10,619 bases of DNA from Candidatus Rokuibacteriota bacterium (lineage in GTDB: Bacteria; Methylomirabilota; Methylomirabilia; Rokubacteriales; JACPHL01), in assembly GCA_016188625.1 (NCBI GenBank), contig JACPHL010000070.1, forward strand, positions 1 through 10,619, in the 5' to 3' direction. The position numbers and the translations under genes are program-made. The notes under the pieces are model-generated. The model worked only from the letters and a program-made list of their open reading frames with translations. It made no database searches and was not told the origin of the DNA. Below, in pieces: positions 3,779 to 10,617 of the stretch (positions within the stretch are counted from its first letter, which is position 1; each line of letters starts with the position of its first letter).

Positions 3779-4132
3779 ATGCCCTTCATCGATTGGGAGC
3801 AGGTTCCCGCGGAGAAGGTCGCCGAGGGGATCACCCGGAAGATGGTGACGGGCGAGAGGCTGAGTTTCGTGCTCTGGCGGTTCGCCGCCGGCCTCCACGT
3901 CCCCGCCCACCGGCACCCCAACGAACAGATCGCCTACATGATCCGCGGGAAGATGGAGTTCCGGCTCGGGGACGAGCGGCGGACCCTGTCGCGGCCCGGG
4001 GAGATCCTCCTGGTCCCGGCCAACGTGGAGCACGAGGCCTGGTTCCCCGAGGAGACCGAGGTGGTGGACGTCTTCAGCCCGCCCCGCGAGGATTTCCTGA
4101 CCGGCCGGGACGACTACCTGAGGCGAGGATAG
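3779..4132 (+). CDS. Single-domain cupin protein
   Basis: A 117-residue protein of the cupin_2 type, a small beta-barrel that usually binds one divalent metal. Cupin motif 1 is seen as G38 followed by H44, H46 and E49/Q50 (HRHPNEQ), then G57. Motif 2 is seen as PGEILLVPANVEH with P73, G74, P80 and H85. H44, H46, E49 or Q50, and H85 are the likely metal ligands. The motif PNEQIAYMIRGKMEF is close to KdgF-like and other small sugar- or metabolite-binding cupins. Such proteins include isomerases, dioxygenases and pure ligand binders, so the reaction cannot be assigned. It has its own promoter and ribosome binding site and stands as a single gene before a hairpin cluster. The gene is intact and the start well supported. 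Confidence 0.88.
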   Translation: MPFIDWEQVPAEKVAEGITRKMVTGERLSFVLWRFAAGLHVPAHRHPNEQIAYMIRGKMEFRLGDERRTLSRPGEILLVPANVEHEAWFPEETEVVDVFSPPREDFLTGRDDYLRRG

Positions 4133-4287: not shown

Positions 4288-5881
4288 GTGGCCGCCGACG
4301 AGTTCACCCCCGAGGAGCGGACCACCCTCGCCCGGTACTTCACCGATGTCGAGGGACCCGTCTTCGCCCTGGTCAACCTCCCGGAGGTCGTGAAGGGGCT
4401 CGCGCTCCCCGAAGTCCCTGCGCCGGCTCTTCCTCGACGAGTTCCTCGATGAAGGCGGGCAGCCCCACGCCGGGACCGAGGTCACGGGGGTCAAGAGGGC
4501 CGAGAAGCTCTACGAGCGCGTGTTCTTCGAGTACGGCGACGACTCCGTGGCCCAGCTCGGGGGCGTCCACCTGGCGTGCGAGGGGGCCTCGAACCTCCTC
4601 ACGAAGGTCCTGGAGTGGGGCCGCCTGATGGCCTACCTCGAGCAGTCCACGCGCTACGTCCCCTACGACGATCGCCCCGGCGGGCGGTGGCGCTACCACC
4701 TCCCCGAGGAGCTGGCGGGATCCCCGCTCCTGGGGGGTTACACGGCCGCCCTGGATCACGCCTTCGAGACCTACGCCCGCGCGCTCGGGCCGCTGCAGGA
4801 GTACTTCCGGCAGCGCTACCCGAAGGCGCCGGAGGACCCCGACCAGGTCTACCGGATGACGATCCGGGCGAAGGCCCTCGACACCCTCCGGGGCCTCCTG
4901 CCGGCGGCGACTGTCTCCAACGTCGGGCTCTACGGCACGGGCCAGGCGTACGAGGCGCTCCTCCTCCGGATGTTCGCCCACCCGCTCGCGGAGGTCCGTG
5001 CTTCCGCCCAGCTCATGCTCCGGGAGCTCCGGAAGGTCATCCCGGCCTTCCTCCGCCGCGTGGACCTCCCCGACCGCGGGGGGGCCTGGAGCCGCTACCT
5101 GGCCGAGACCCGCGAGGCCACCGAGGCGATCGCCCGGCGGCTGCTCGGGGAGGCCCAACCCGAGGAGCGCCCCGAGGTGGTCCTGACCGAGTACGACCCC
5201 GACGGCGAGCTGAGGGTGGTGGCGGCGGCCCTCTACGCGGCCTCGCGCCTCCCCGACGACGCCTTGCTCGAGCGCGCCCGCTGGCTCACGCCCGAGGAGC
5301 GGGCCGCGGTCCTCGCCGCCTATGTCGGCCGCCGGACGAACCGCCGGCACAAGCCCGGCCGGGCCTTCGAGCGGACGAGCTATCGCTTCGACGTCCTGAC
5401 CGACTACGGGGCGTTCCGCGACCTCCAGCGCCACCGCCTGCTCACCCTGGAGTGGCAGCCGCTCTCCTGCCGCCACGGCTACGTGACCCCCGCGGCGGTC
5501 GAGGAGGCGGGGCTCCTCGAGGACTGGGCGCGGGTGATGGAGCGCTGCGCCGGCCTCCACGAGGCGATGCTGAAAGCGGGGCTCGGGCCGGTGGCGCAGT
5601 ACGCGGTCCCGCTGGCCTACCGGATCCGGTTCTACATGCAGATGAACGCCCGCGAGGCGATGCACATCATCGAGCTGCGGACGACGCCGCAGGGCCACCC
5701 GACCTACCGCCGCATCTGCCAGGCGATGCACCGGCTGATCCGCGACCAGGCGGGCCACCGGGCGATCGCCGCCGCCATGGGCTTCGCCGACCACTCCGAG
5801 GTCGAGCTGGAGCGCCTCGAGGCCGAGCGGGCGGCCGAGCAGCGCCGGCGGGAGCAGGCAGCCCCGTCCGGGCCGTCGTGA
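4288..5881 (+). CDS. Two-domain ThyX-like protein (flavin-dependent thymidylate synthase family), frameshifted near 5' end
   Basis: ThyX enzymes methylate dUMP to dTMP with FAD and methylene-tetrahydrofolate. The frame open from 4394 to the stop at 5879-5881 carries two ThyX-like repeats. Taking the codon at 4520 as residue 1, the first repeat has EYGDDSVAQLGGVHL and EQSTRYVPYD (41-50). The second has RFDVLTDYGAFRDLQRHR (R304, H305, R306) and later NAREAMHIIELRTTPQGHP, a typical ThyX C-terminal segment. The signature RHRX7S is split: repeat 1 reads WGRX7S and repeat 2 reads RHRX7P. The true N-terminus seems to start at GTG 4288, in another frame (AADEFTPEER, then GPVFALVNLPEVVKG), and that frame stops at 4452. 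The frames meet near 4398-4400. So the gene is either broken, wrongly assembled, or restarts at GTG 4520 without its first roughly 80 residues. It may be a ThyX homologue with altered or lost activity. Confidence 0.75.
4396..4402 (+). other. Frameshift point in the ThyX-like gene
   Basis: Up to G4398 the first frame reads VNLPEVVKG. From T4400 the next frame reads SRSPKSLRRLFLDEF and carries on to the end of the gene. As I remember the family, homologues have a few more residues between these parts (roughly ALFARY). That would fit a short deletion of a length not divisible by three, about 17 bp, leaving one extra base. The exact size is inference. Confidence 0.6.
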
Positions 5882-7066: not shown

Positions 7067-7921
7067 CTATTTCTTGGTGGCCTGGGCCTTCCTGGCGGGC
7101 GCGGCCTCCGGGCGCTTGGCCTTGGCCGCGGGCTTCTTCTCCGCCAGGACCCGCTTGGCGAGGCTCTCCTTCAGGGCCTCCATGAGGTCGATGACCTGGG
7201 CGCGCTGGACCTGGGGGCCGACCGCGGTGACCTCCTTTCCCTCCACCTTCAGGTTGACGAGGTCGAGGACCCGCAGCCGGTACTCGTCCTGGTACTGCTC
7301 CGGCCGGAACTCGTCGCTGGCCAGCTCGTCGATGAGCCGGAGCGCCAGCTCCAGCTCCCCCTCCTTGATCTTGGCCGACCCCCCCTTGTCGATCTCGCCG
7401 AAGTCCCGGATCTCGTCGGCGAAGTACATGGTGTGGAGCATGAGCCCCCCCTGGGCGGGGCGGATCAGGACCAGGCTCTCCTTGCCGCGCATGACGAACT
7501 TGGCGAGGGCGACCCGGTCGGTCTTGGCCAGGGCGTCGGCCAGGAGCCGGTACGCCTTCTCCCCGCCCTTGTCGGGCCCGAGGTAGTAGGTTCGGTCGAA
7601 GTAGACCGGGTCCACCTGGGGGAGCGGCACGAACTCGGCGATGTCGATGACCTTGGAGGCCTCGCCCTCGAGCGCCTTCAGCTCCTCGTCGGTGAGCCGC
7701 GCGTACTGGTCCTTGGCGAACTCGTAGCCGCGGACGAGCCCGGCCCGGTCCACCACCTCGTTGCAGGTGGGGCAGACCTGCTGCTGCCGGATCCGGGAGC
7801 CGCACTTGGCGTGCAGAAGGTTGAAGGAGACGCCGCCCGAGGCGGCGGCCGTGTAGAGCTTGATCGGGATGGAGACCAGGCCGAAGGAGATCGTGCCCGA
7901 TCCGAGGGAATGGGGCGGCAT
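7067..7921 (-). CDS. ku: Non-homologous end-joining protein Ku
   Basis: Bacterial Ku is a homodimeric ring that loads on DNA double-strand ends and recruits LigD. The 284-residue protein starts with SGTISFGLVSIPIKLYTA (8-25), the standard Ku core opening. A Cys-rich patch follows with H37, C40, C50 and C53 (CGSRIRQQQVCPTC). Next come GYEFAKDQYARLTDEEL, FVPLPQVDPVYFDRTYYLGP, and the bridge region GLMLHTMYFADEIRDFGE. The C-terminal core segment is EYRLRVLDLVNLKVEGKEV. The tail (last 25 or so residues) is rich in Lys and Ala, like the basic DNA-binding extensions of many bacterial Ku proteins. ATG 7921 is chosen since the core begins right after it and AGGAGGG lies 8 bases upstream. A GTG at 7972 is less likely. 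It is divergent from ligD, with overlapping promoters. Confidence 0.95.
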   Translation of the reverse strand: MPPHSLGSGTISFGLVSIPIKLYTAAASGGVSFNLLHAKCGSRIRQQQVCPTCNEVVDRAGLVRGYEFAKDQYARLTDEELKALEGEASKVIDIAEFVPLPQVDPVYFDRTYYLGPDKGGEKAYRLLADALAKTDRVALAKFVMRGKESLVLIRPAQGGLMLHTMYFADEIRDFGEIDKGGSAKIKEGELELALRLIDELASDEFRPEQYQDEYRLRVLDLVNLKVEGKEVTAVGPQVQRAQVIDLMEALKESLAKRVLAEKKPAAKAKRPEAAPARKAQATKK

Positions 7922-7929
7922 GGCCGAAG

Positions 7930-7936
7930 CCCTCCT
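7930..7936 (-). promoter_or_regulatory. Shine-Dalgarno for ku
   Basis: On the minus strand AGGAGGG lies 8 bases before the ATG at 7921 and supports that start over the GTG at 7972. Confidence 0.75.
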
Positions 7937-7958
7937 GTCCGGGATCTCGAATGGTGAA

Positions 7959-7987
7959 TTGCACCTTACCACGAAAGCCCCTATGAT
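7959..7987 (+). promoter_or_regulatory. Predicted ligD promoter
   Basis: TTGCAC (7959-7964) and TATGAT (7982-7987) are 17 bp apart. The -10 box matches TATAAT at five of six positions, the -35 box at three. Transcription would start near 7994, giving a leader of nearly 60 bases to ATG 8053. The element almost coincides with the ku promoter on the other strand. Confidence 0.6.
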
Positions 7988-7991: not shown

Positions 7992-8052
7992 AAAGGCCAG
8001 GACATTCAAGATCTTGGGCCGAGATGACGGCCATGACGCCACCGGTTGGGGT

Positions 8053-10617
8053 ATGAGCCAGGATCTCCCCCCGCTGAAGGAGTATCGGGAAAAGCGCGAC
8101 CCCGAGCGGACGCCGGAGCCGTTCGGCGGCCGCCGCGCGGGGGTGGGGCGCCTCTTCGTCGTCCAGAAGCCCGCCGCCCGCCGCCTCCACTACGACCTGC
8201 GCCTGGAGATCGACGGGATCCTGAAGAGCTGGGCCGTCCCCAAGGGCCCCTCGGTCCGGCCGGGCGAGCGGCGGCTCGCCGTCCACGTCGAGGACCACCC
8301 GGTTGAGTACGCCGACTTCGAGGGGGTGATCCCCGCGGGGAACTACGGCGCGGGCCCCGTGATCGTCTGGGACCGAGGCTGGTACCGCCCCGTCAAGGAT
8401 CGGGACCCGCTCGAAGGGCTGGCCCGGGGGAAGCTCGAGGTCGAGCTCATCGGGGTCAAGCTCCGCGGCCGCTGGACCCTCGCCCGGATGGCCGGGAAGG
8501 ACAAGGAGTGGCTCCTCCTCAAGACGGCCGACGCCTTCGCCGGCGAGGAGGAGCCGACCGAGCGCTACCCGGAGTCGGTCCTCTCGGGGCTGACGGTCGA
8601 GGAGCTGCGGGAGGGCGCAGGCCGGCTCGCGACCCTCCGCCAGCGCCTCCGGGCCCTCCGGGCCCCGCCCGGCGAGGTCTTGCCACGCGAGCAGCCGCTC
8701 ATGCTCGCCTCCCCGGCCGCCCGGCCCTTCTCCGCCGCGGGGTGGCTCTTCGAGATCAAGTACGACGGCGTCCGCGTCCTGGCCTGGCGCGAGGGGGAGC
8801 GGGTGGAGCTCTACGGCCGGAGCGGCCAGGCGTTCACGGCCCGCTATCCCGAGGTCGCCCGGGCCCTCGGGGCGCTCCCGGTCGAGCGGTTCGTCCTGGA
8901 CGGCGAGGTGGTGGCCCTGGACGAGGCCGGACGGCCGAGCTTCCAGCGCCTCCAGGCCCGGATGCACCTCACGAGCCCCCACGACATCGAGCGGGCCCGG
9001 GCCACGGTGCCGGTGACCGGGATCTTCTTCGACTGCCTGGCCGTGGAGGGGCGCGACCTCCGCGGCCTCCCCCTCCTGGCCAGGAAGGAGGTCCTCCAGC
9101 TCTTCCTCCCGGCCCGCGGGGTGGTCCGCTACGGCGACCACGTCCTCGAGCACGGCGAGGCGTTCTTCGAGGCCGCCTCCACAGAGCGCCTGGAGGGGGT
9201 GGTGGCCAAGCAGGTCTCGAGCCGTTACACGGGCGGGCGGACGCGGGAGTGGCTCAAGATCAAGTGCGCGCGCCGGCAGGAGTTCGTTATCGGCGGCTAC
9301 ACCGACCCCCAGGGCTCGCGCGGCTACTTCGGGGCCCTGCACCTCGGGCTCTACGAGGGGGAGCGGCTTGTCTACGTCTCCAAGGTTGGGACGGGGTTCG
9401 ACGAGGCGGCGCTCAAGGCCGTGTGGGGGAGGCTCGAGCCGCTCCGCCGGCCGGTTTCCCCCTTCGCGGTCGGCTCGCCGGCGGGCCCAGGCCACCACTG
9501 GGTGGAGTCGAGGCTGGTCTGCGAGGTGCGCTTCACCGAGTGGACCCGCGACGGCGGGGTCCGCCACCCCGCCTTCCTCGGGCTCCGGGACGACAAGCGG
9601 CCCGAGGAGTGCCGCCGCGAGCTGCCTGTTGAATCCCTGGCCTCGCCCTTCCCACCCGAGGAGGCCCGCCGCCCCGAGGTCAGGATCACGAACCCGACCA
9701 AGGTCTTCTGGCCCGAGGAGGGGTACACCAAGGCCGACCTGGTCGCCTACTACGAGGCCGTGGCGCCGCGCCTTTTGCCGTACCTCAAGGACCGCCCCCT
9801 GGTCCTGACCCGTTACCCCGACGGGATCGCGGGGAAGTCGTTCTTCCAGAAGGACGCCCCCGACTTCGTCCCGGCCTGGGTCCGGACCGAGCGGATCTAC
9901 TCCAAGGACGCCGGGCGCGAGATCGACTACTTCGTCGTGAACGACCTCGAGACGCTCCGCTACATCGTCAACCTCGGGACGATCCCGCTCCACCTCTGGA
10001 GCTCGCGCCTCGGCGCCCTCGACCGCCCCGACTGGCTGGTCCTCGACCTCGACCCCAAGGGCGCCCCGTTCAGCGACGTCGTCCGGGTCGCCCGCCGGCT
10101 CCACCGGATCCTGGAGCGGCTCGAGCTGCCCAGCTACGTCAAGACCTCGGGCGCCACCGGGCTCCACATCCTGCTCCCACTCGGGGCCCGCTACAGCCAC
10201 GAGGAGGCCCGGACCTTCGCCCGGCTCCTGGCGATGCTGGCCGTGGAGGCGGAGCCCGAAATCGCCACGGTGGCCCGGCCGCTCCGGGCCCGGGGCGGGA
10301 AGGTCTACATCGACTTCGGCCAGAACGGCCACGGCCGGACGATCGTGGCGCCGTTCTCGGTCCGCCCGCTCCCCGGCGCGCCGGTCTCCTGCCCGCTTCG
10401 ATGGGGGGAGGTGACAGGCCGCCTGGACCCGGGGCGCTTCACGATCAAGACCGCCCCGGCGCGGCTCGAGAAGCTCGGCGATCCGCTGGCCCCGGTGCTC
10501 GAGGGCGCGATCGACATGGCGGCAGCCCTGGCCCGGATCGAGGCGCGGCTCGGCGCCCGGGACGGCCGCGCGAGCCGGGGCGGGGGGGCCGGCGGGGGGG
10601 GTCAGGACGTCAGGTAG
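8053..10617 (+). CDS. ligD: Multifunctional DNA end-joining ligase LigD (phosphoesterase-ligase-polymerase)
   Basis: LigD processes and seals DNA double-strand breaks bound by Ku. The 854-residue protein has the Pseudomonas-type order. Phosphoesterase domain (about 30-160): FVVQKPAARRLHYDLRLE, SWAVPKGPS, HVEDHPVEYADFEG. Ligase domain (about 225-530): nucleotidyl lysine K236 in KYDGVR, EGVVAK (381-386) and LKIKC (K402, K404). Polymerase domain (about 550-840): NPTKVFWPEEGYTKADL, the metal-binding pair D665 and D667 in LDLDP, KTSGATGLHILLPL, and D754 in YIDFGQNGHGRT. Ligase and polymerase residues look complete. In the phosphoesterase domain, H46, D48, R50, K64, R74, H82 and Y86 are present, but residue 40, normally the first metal-binding histidine, is proline. 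ATG 8053 is chosen since MSQDLPPLKEYREKRDP is the usual opening; its ribosome binding site is weak. The C-terminus ends in a short glycine-rich tail. Confidence 0.95.
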   Translation: MSQDLPPLKEYREKRDPERTPEPFGGRRAGVGRLFVVQKPAARRLHYDLRLEIDGILKSWAVPKGPSVRPGERRLAVHVEDHPVEYADFEGVIPAGNYGAGPVIVWDRGWYRPVKDRDPLEGLARGKLEVELIGVKLRGRWTLARMAGKDKEWLLLKTADAFAGEEEPTERYPESVLSGLTVEELREGAGRLATLRQRLRALRAPPGEVLPREQPLMLASPAARPFSAAGWLFEIKYDGVRVLAWREGERVELYGRSGQAFTARYPEVARALGALPVERFVLDGEVVALDEAGRPSFQRLQARMHLTSPHDIERARATVPVTGIFFDCLAVEGRDLRGLPLLARKEVLQLFLPARGVVRYGDHVLEHGEAFFEAASTERLEGVVAKQVSSRYTGGRTREWLKIKCARRQEFVIGGYTDPQGSRGYFGALHLGLYEGERLVYVSKVGTGFDEAALKAVWGRLEPLRRPVSPFAVGSPAGPGHHWVESRLVCEVRFTEWTRDGGVRHPAFLGLRDDKRPEECRRELPVESLASPFPPEEARRPEVRITNPTKVFWPEEGYTKADLVAYYEAVAPRLLPYLKDRPLVLTRYPDGIAGKSFFQKDAPDFVPAWVRTERIYSKDAGREIDYFVVNDLETLRYIVNLGTIPLHLWSSRLGALDRPDWLVLDLDPKGAPFSDVVRVARRLHRILERLELPSYVKTSGATGLHILLPLGARYSHEEARTFARLLAMLAVEAEPEIATVARPLRARGGKVYIDFGQNGHGRTIVAPFSVRPLPGAPVSCPLRWGEVTGRLDPGRFTIKTAPARLEKLGDPLAPVLEGAIDMAAALARIEARLGARDGRASRGGGAGGGGQDVR

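Follow-up and report, generated by a model that had tools for sequence, protein, structure and literature searches.

A tandem ThyX variant whose catalytic residues are divided between two fused repeats, probably to form hybrid sites

In the genome of a Rokubacterium, one gene encodes a fusion of two ThyX copies; each copy lacks the half-site kept by the other, and together they probably form one working site. The gene lies in the window, i.e., the whole stretch of DNA analysed here (10,619 nt of contig JACPHL010000070.1), from a host genome of 2.6 Mb that is 84.5% complete. The open reading frame probably codes for, or once coded for, the flavin-dependent thymidylate synthase of this organism, built as two repeats with hybrid sites that span them. 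Our verdict is that tandem ThyX is a widespread, uncharacterised, asymmetric variant of ThyX. In the window, one ORF (4400-5881, plus strand) carries two Thy1 (ThyX) domains, both of which score above the Pfam gathering cut-off of 24.8. The first repeat reads WGR-x7-S and then TRY (WGRLMAYLEQS at 4616-4648; STRY at 4646-4657), and the second reads RHR-x7-P. A sequence-only reading of this DNA had proposed two ThyX repeats with complementary motif loss, and the motif positions and the Pfam scores of both repeats bear this out. The span given in that reading, 4616-5463, is right at its start and runs 2 bases beyond the motif at its end. The features of the locus are as follows.

3779..4132, plus strand: cupin gene upstream of the tandem ThyX gene; 14 other Rokubacterial loci also have a cupin homologue close to the tandem
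4288..4398, plus strand: N-terminal part of tandem ThyX, VAADEFTPEERTTLARYFTDVEGPVFALVNLPEVVKG, in frame +1 from a GTG start; intact relatives carry a homologous N-terminus
4398..4399, plus strand: junction of a 17-base deletion, just before SRS, from DNA alignment with L088, L068, L072 and L107
4400..5881, plus strand: main reading frame for tandem ThyX, from SRSPKS... through the stop codon
4493..5047, plus strand: repeat 1, Thy1 domain (PF02511, 57.0 bits)
4616..4657, plus strand: repeat 1 half-motif, WGRLMAYLEQSTRY; RH of RHR lost, equivalents of E86, S88, R90 and Y91 kept
4877..4903, plus strand: LDTLRGLLP in repeat 1; equivalent of R147 (dUMP phosphate) kept
5183..5749, plus strand: repeat 2, Thy1 domain (PF02511, 72.9 bits)
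5345..5371, plus strand: RHKPGRAFE in repeat 2; equivalents of H53 and E58, with Arg replacing T55
5429..5461, plus strand: repeat 2 half-motif, RHRLLTLEWQP; RHR kept, equivalents of E86, S88, R90 and Y91 lost
5645..5680, plus strand: NAREAMHIIELR in repeat 2; equivalents of N163, R165 and R174 kept

The window copy is frame-shifted by the 17-base deletion when compared with its Rokubacterial relatives, a frameshift that the sequence-only reading missed. The first ~37 residues are displaced to another frame (4288-4398), where the window retains the same N-terminal start that reads ...FALVNLPEVVKGALFARYSRSPKSL... in the relatives. The remainder of the frame is unbroken and shares 74% identity with L088, so the deletion is either a recent event or an assembly error. 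Elsewhere in the window, Ku and LigD genes are arranged divergently (7067-7972 and 8014-10617), and the LigD has the domain order phosphoesterase, ligase, polymerase.

Is the tandem protein a ThyX? It belongs to the Thy1 superfamily (PF02511), and structure prediction for the homologue L088 gives both repeats a ThyX fold. Its AlphaFold2 model reaches a pLDDT of 89.3 and a pTM of 0.87, and residues 296-503 of that model (repeat 2) match ThyX structures at Z 16.7. Repeat 1 of L088 modelled alone (pLDDT 86.0) matches ThyX at Z 11.9, with the first unrelated chain at 4.2. Judged by its sequence, the protein is not a canonical ThyX, either by the TIGR02170 equivalog cut-off, which it misses (53.1 bits vs 87.9), or by a contiguous RHRX7S in one domain, since the motif is divided over the repeats in 118/118 proteins. 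The dUMP residues that ThyX draws from its A and C subunits are nevertheless all present in the whole protein: R78, H79, R80 and R174 in repeat 2, and E86, S88, R90, Y91 and R147 in repeat 1 (Thermotoga maritima numbering, with equivalences taken from an alignment made in this analysis).

How consistent is the split? The alignment comprised 28 tandem proteins of the order (Rokubacteriales), 12 distant tandems and 16 single ThyX; the distant tandems came from two other families of the phylum, Miltoncostaea, Euzebya, Parabacteroides, Paenibacillus and Bacillus plasmids, and Tunturiibacter and Vibrio phages. Among the 40 aligned tandems, R78 and H79 are found in no repeat 1 and in every repeat 2, while E86, S88, R90, Y91 and R147 are found in every repeat 1 and in no repeat 2. 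R174 is kept in repeat 2 of all 40. The equivalent of T55 is Ser in all 40 first repeats, and R165 lies mostly in repeat 2 (35/40). Repeat 1 is not, as aligned, stripped of all A-type residues: R80 is retained in 35/40, position 174 (ambiguous because of gaps) is frequently Arg, and the equivalents of S30 and S55 are kept too. The repeat 2 loop has a conserved motif of its own. Adding 78 named genome loci brought the set to 118 tandem proteins, spanning Rokubacteria, Actinomycetota, Acidobacteriota, Chloroflexota, Bacteroidota, Bacillota, phages and others. In all 118, repeat 1 has S[TQ]RY and lacks RH at the R78-H79 position, and repeat 2 has RHR (or RHNR) and lacks S.RY. The one exception in detail is L063, where repeat 2 has a Ser at the place of S88, yet R90 and Y91 are missing. 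In the Paenibacillus and Bacillus plasmid proteins (L056, 1905-3491; L057, 1776-3494), RHNR replaces RHR in repeat 2, and repeat 1 has a matching one-residue insertion. Viral relatives were picked by the RDLQRHR pattern of repeat 2, which does not select repeat 1; S-x-R is kept in repeat 1 of 45/45, although at the place of Y91 three have Ala or Lys and two have Phe. The split that the sequence-only reading saw in one protein is therefore conserved over 163 sequences (118 + 45), which rules out chance or a single odd genome as its source.

What would such a division mean for the active site? Each ThyX site is built from three subunits. In Mycobacterium tuberculosis ThyX, subunit A contributes RHR 95-97 and Arg199, B contributes Ser71 and Arg190, and C contributes Arg87, Ser105, Arg107 and Tyr108 (reviewed in PMC6514825). 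Similarly, PolB takes Arg86 and His83 from one monomer and Glu94, Ser96, Arg98 and Arg166 from the other (PMC5003785), and in PBCV-1 ThyX, Ser88 sits on a different monomer from Gln75 and Arg182 (PMC3498832). When the 163 sequences are compared with ThyX and PolB structures, each repeat is seen to keep the residues of one subunit role, with those of the facing subunit confined to its partner repeat. The dUMP-clamping set (E86, S88, R90, Y91 and R147) is all retained by repeat 1 and lost from repeat 2, and the start of RHR that grips FAD and dUMP (R78 and H79) is retained by repeat 2 and lost from repeat 1. This residue-by-subunit comparison supports the earlier suggestion that every fused pair makes a single hybrid site. 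Assigning the role of the third subunit (B) to one repeat failed, because T55 (Ser, in repeat 1) and R165 (mostly in repeat 2) disagree.

We infer a quaternary structure, hybrid site, activity and FAD stoichiometry for tandem ThyX as follows. Two chains would form a pseudo-tetramer resembling the ThyX homotetramer. In the working site, repeat 2 would supply RHR and Arg174 for FAD and dUMP binding, and repeat 1 would supply the dUMP-clamping loop E-x-S-x-R-Y and Arg147; this C-type loop may come from the same chain or from the partner chain. The mirror-image site, without R78, H79, S88, R90 and Y91, would be dead. Because the RHR set and Arg174 lie in repeat 2 and the C set lies in repeat 1, each pseudo-tetramer would have two complete and two dead sites, and a dead mirror-image site would leave one active site, and probably one FAD, per chain. 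Hybrid sites are well supported by the residue patterns, not proven. It is also conceivable, if rather unlikely, that the protein is a thymidylate synthase whose sites are less simple, with four FAD per pseudo-tetramer or with the second site repurposed for a nucleotide or NADPH. The equivalents of S30, S55 and often R80 and R174 in repeat 1, and the conserved motif of the repeat 2 loop, would fit such an arrangement, but the R78-H79 pair, which binds the FAD phosphates, is always missing from repeat 1.

Do the genomes need this protein as a thymidylate synthase? Exactly two Thy1 matches occur in 46/59 genomes of the order, and more than two in none; in two of the 46 (G011 and G012), the matches are on different contigs. 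The sequence-only reading had proposed a search for a separate thyA or a normal thyX. ThyA is found in 0/36 good-quality genomes of the order and in 0/53 of the phylum, and the order has no further ThyX. Thymidine salvage is unlikely because thymidine kinase gives just 2 marginal matches among the 59 genomes of the order. Outside the order, Thy1 matches are limited to the tandem's own two in 30/32 tandem carriers, and ThyA is present in 1/32. Certain genomes have no detected thymidylate synthase, probably because they are incomplete. The one ThyA found in the order (L032) is in a genome (G053; 87% complete, 6% contamination) without a Thy1 match, possibly a replacement. With ThyA, other ThyX and thymidine kinase essentially absent, gene content makes the tandem the only candidate for dTMP synthesis in its genomes, and it most likely works like ThyX.

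The sequence-only reading had also raised a flavoprotein with a new reaction and a non-catalytic paralogue, and both are disfavoured, and rejected as the main explanation, because the tandem is the sole thymidylate synthase candidate and thymidine kinase is essentially absent. A Thy1-fold flavoprotein with a different reaction, e.g., UMP methylation as carried out by PolB, is very unlikely. PolB does provide a precedent for a ThyX relative with a changed substrate (PMC5003785), and the equivalog cut-off of TIGR02170 is not reached; against this, genomes without ThyA, other ThyX or thymidine kinase need a source of dTMP, the residues contacting dUMP are retained, and large phages have the gene, in one case next to that for a dCMP deaminase. 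A non-catalytic or regulatory paralogue, degenerating in both repeats, is barely credible: neither repeat alone has a complete RHRX7S and the window copy is frame-shifted, but the split-set catalytic residues are never lost from both repeats (118/118 proteins), and a functional partner ThyX is absent in 30/32 carriers and in the order.

How did the tandem arise, and how far has it spread? In a tree, the repeat 1s form one group (100/99) and the repeat 2s form another (99/94), with some long branches. This grouping suggests a single ancient fusion that predates the divergence of these lineages. Genome contigs hold at least 577 relatives of the tandem, 80 of which were examined. The tandem alignment matched 46 viral contigs, whereas the phage Tunturi_5 protein as query matched none; one of the 46 (L186) is without the motifs and was excluded, leaving the 45 above. 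Tandem relatives are thus carried by many viral contigs longer than 150 kb (L147-L192), and a dCMP deaminase gene adjoins the tandem once among large phages. The annotation on the plasmid records is "FAD-dependent thymidylate synthase". A single-domain ThyX from another family of the phylum (L052, 91-1971; genome G068) has an intein-like insert of ~360 residues directly before THELVRHR, with C as its first residue and an end that reads VSGN, followed by T.

How does tandem ThyX compare with known systems? Canonical ThyX, or FDTS (TIGR02170, EC 2.1.1.148; T. maritima TM0449 and M. tuberculosis ThyX), shares the Thy1 fold of both repeats and, once the repeats are pooled, the same dUMP and FAD residues. 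It differs in that the tandem has two fused repeats, a divided motif and an equivalog score below the cut-off. PolB, a UMP/dUMP C5-methylase, also has the Thy1 fold and a nucleotide site from two monomers, but it is a single-domain protein with an intact motif and a role in antibiotic biosynthesis. The atypical Corynebacterium glutamicum ThyX (3ge9, 3fnn) is a structural match to the tandem model; according to the entry titles, its host depends on ThyA and can make thymidylate without it, whereas the tandem genomes here are without ThyA. An earlier precedent comes from Valas and Bourne 2009 (PMC3224940), who noted that in most Chloroflexi the sole ThyX is a domain-duplicated, uncharacterised one. 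Going by that paper's description, the architecture is the same, and a Dehalococcoidia tandem (L067) groups with the present family. The paper mentions neither the division of residues nor a hybrid site, nor how widely the form occurs. In the largely open-access literature searched, it was the one paper found on a tandem, fused, duplicated or heterotetrameric ThyX, and a description of the split was not found. Domain duplication was already known; the divided site appears new.

What are the implications of a divided ThyX? First, ThyX is essential, serves as a drug target and needs three subunits to build its site, and a natural, fused, split-site form is a ready-made asymmetric version in which, unlike in the homotetramer, single subunit roles can be mutated separately. 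Second, as an outside prospect that we consider unlikely but worth stating, tandem ThyX would represent an asymmetric class of thymidylate synthase on which hundreds of bacterial species rely for all their dTMP and which is also found in jumbo phages, with one composite site per chain fixed by the fusion and the mirror site as a conserved non-catalytic pocket that has a new structural or regulatory role. Third, large uncultured phyla may have no route to dTMP other than the tandem, which the generic name "FAD-dependent thymidylate synthase" conceals.
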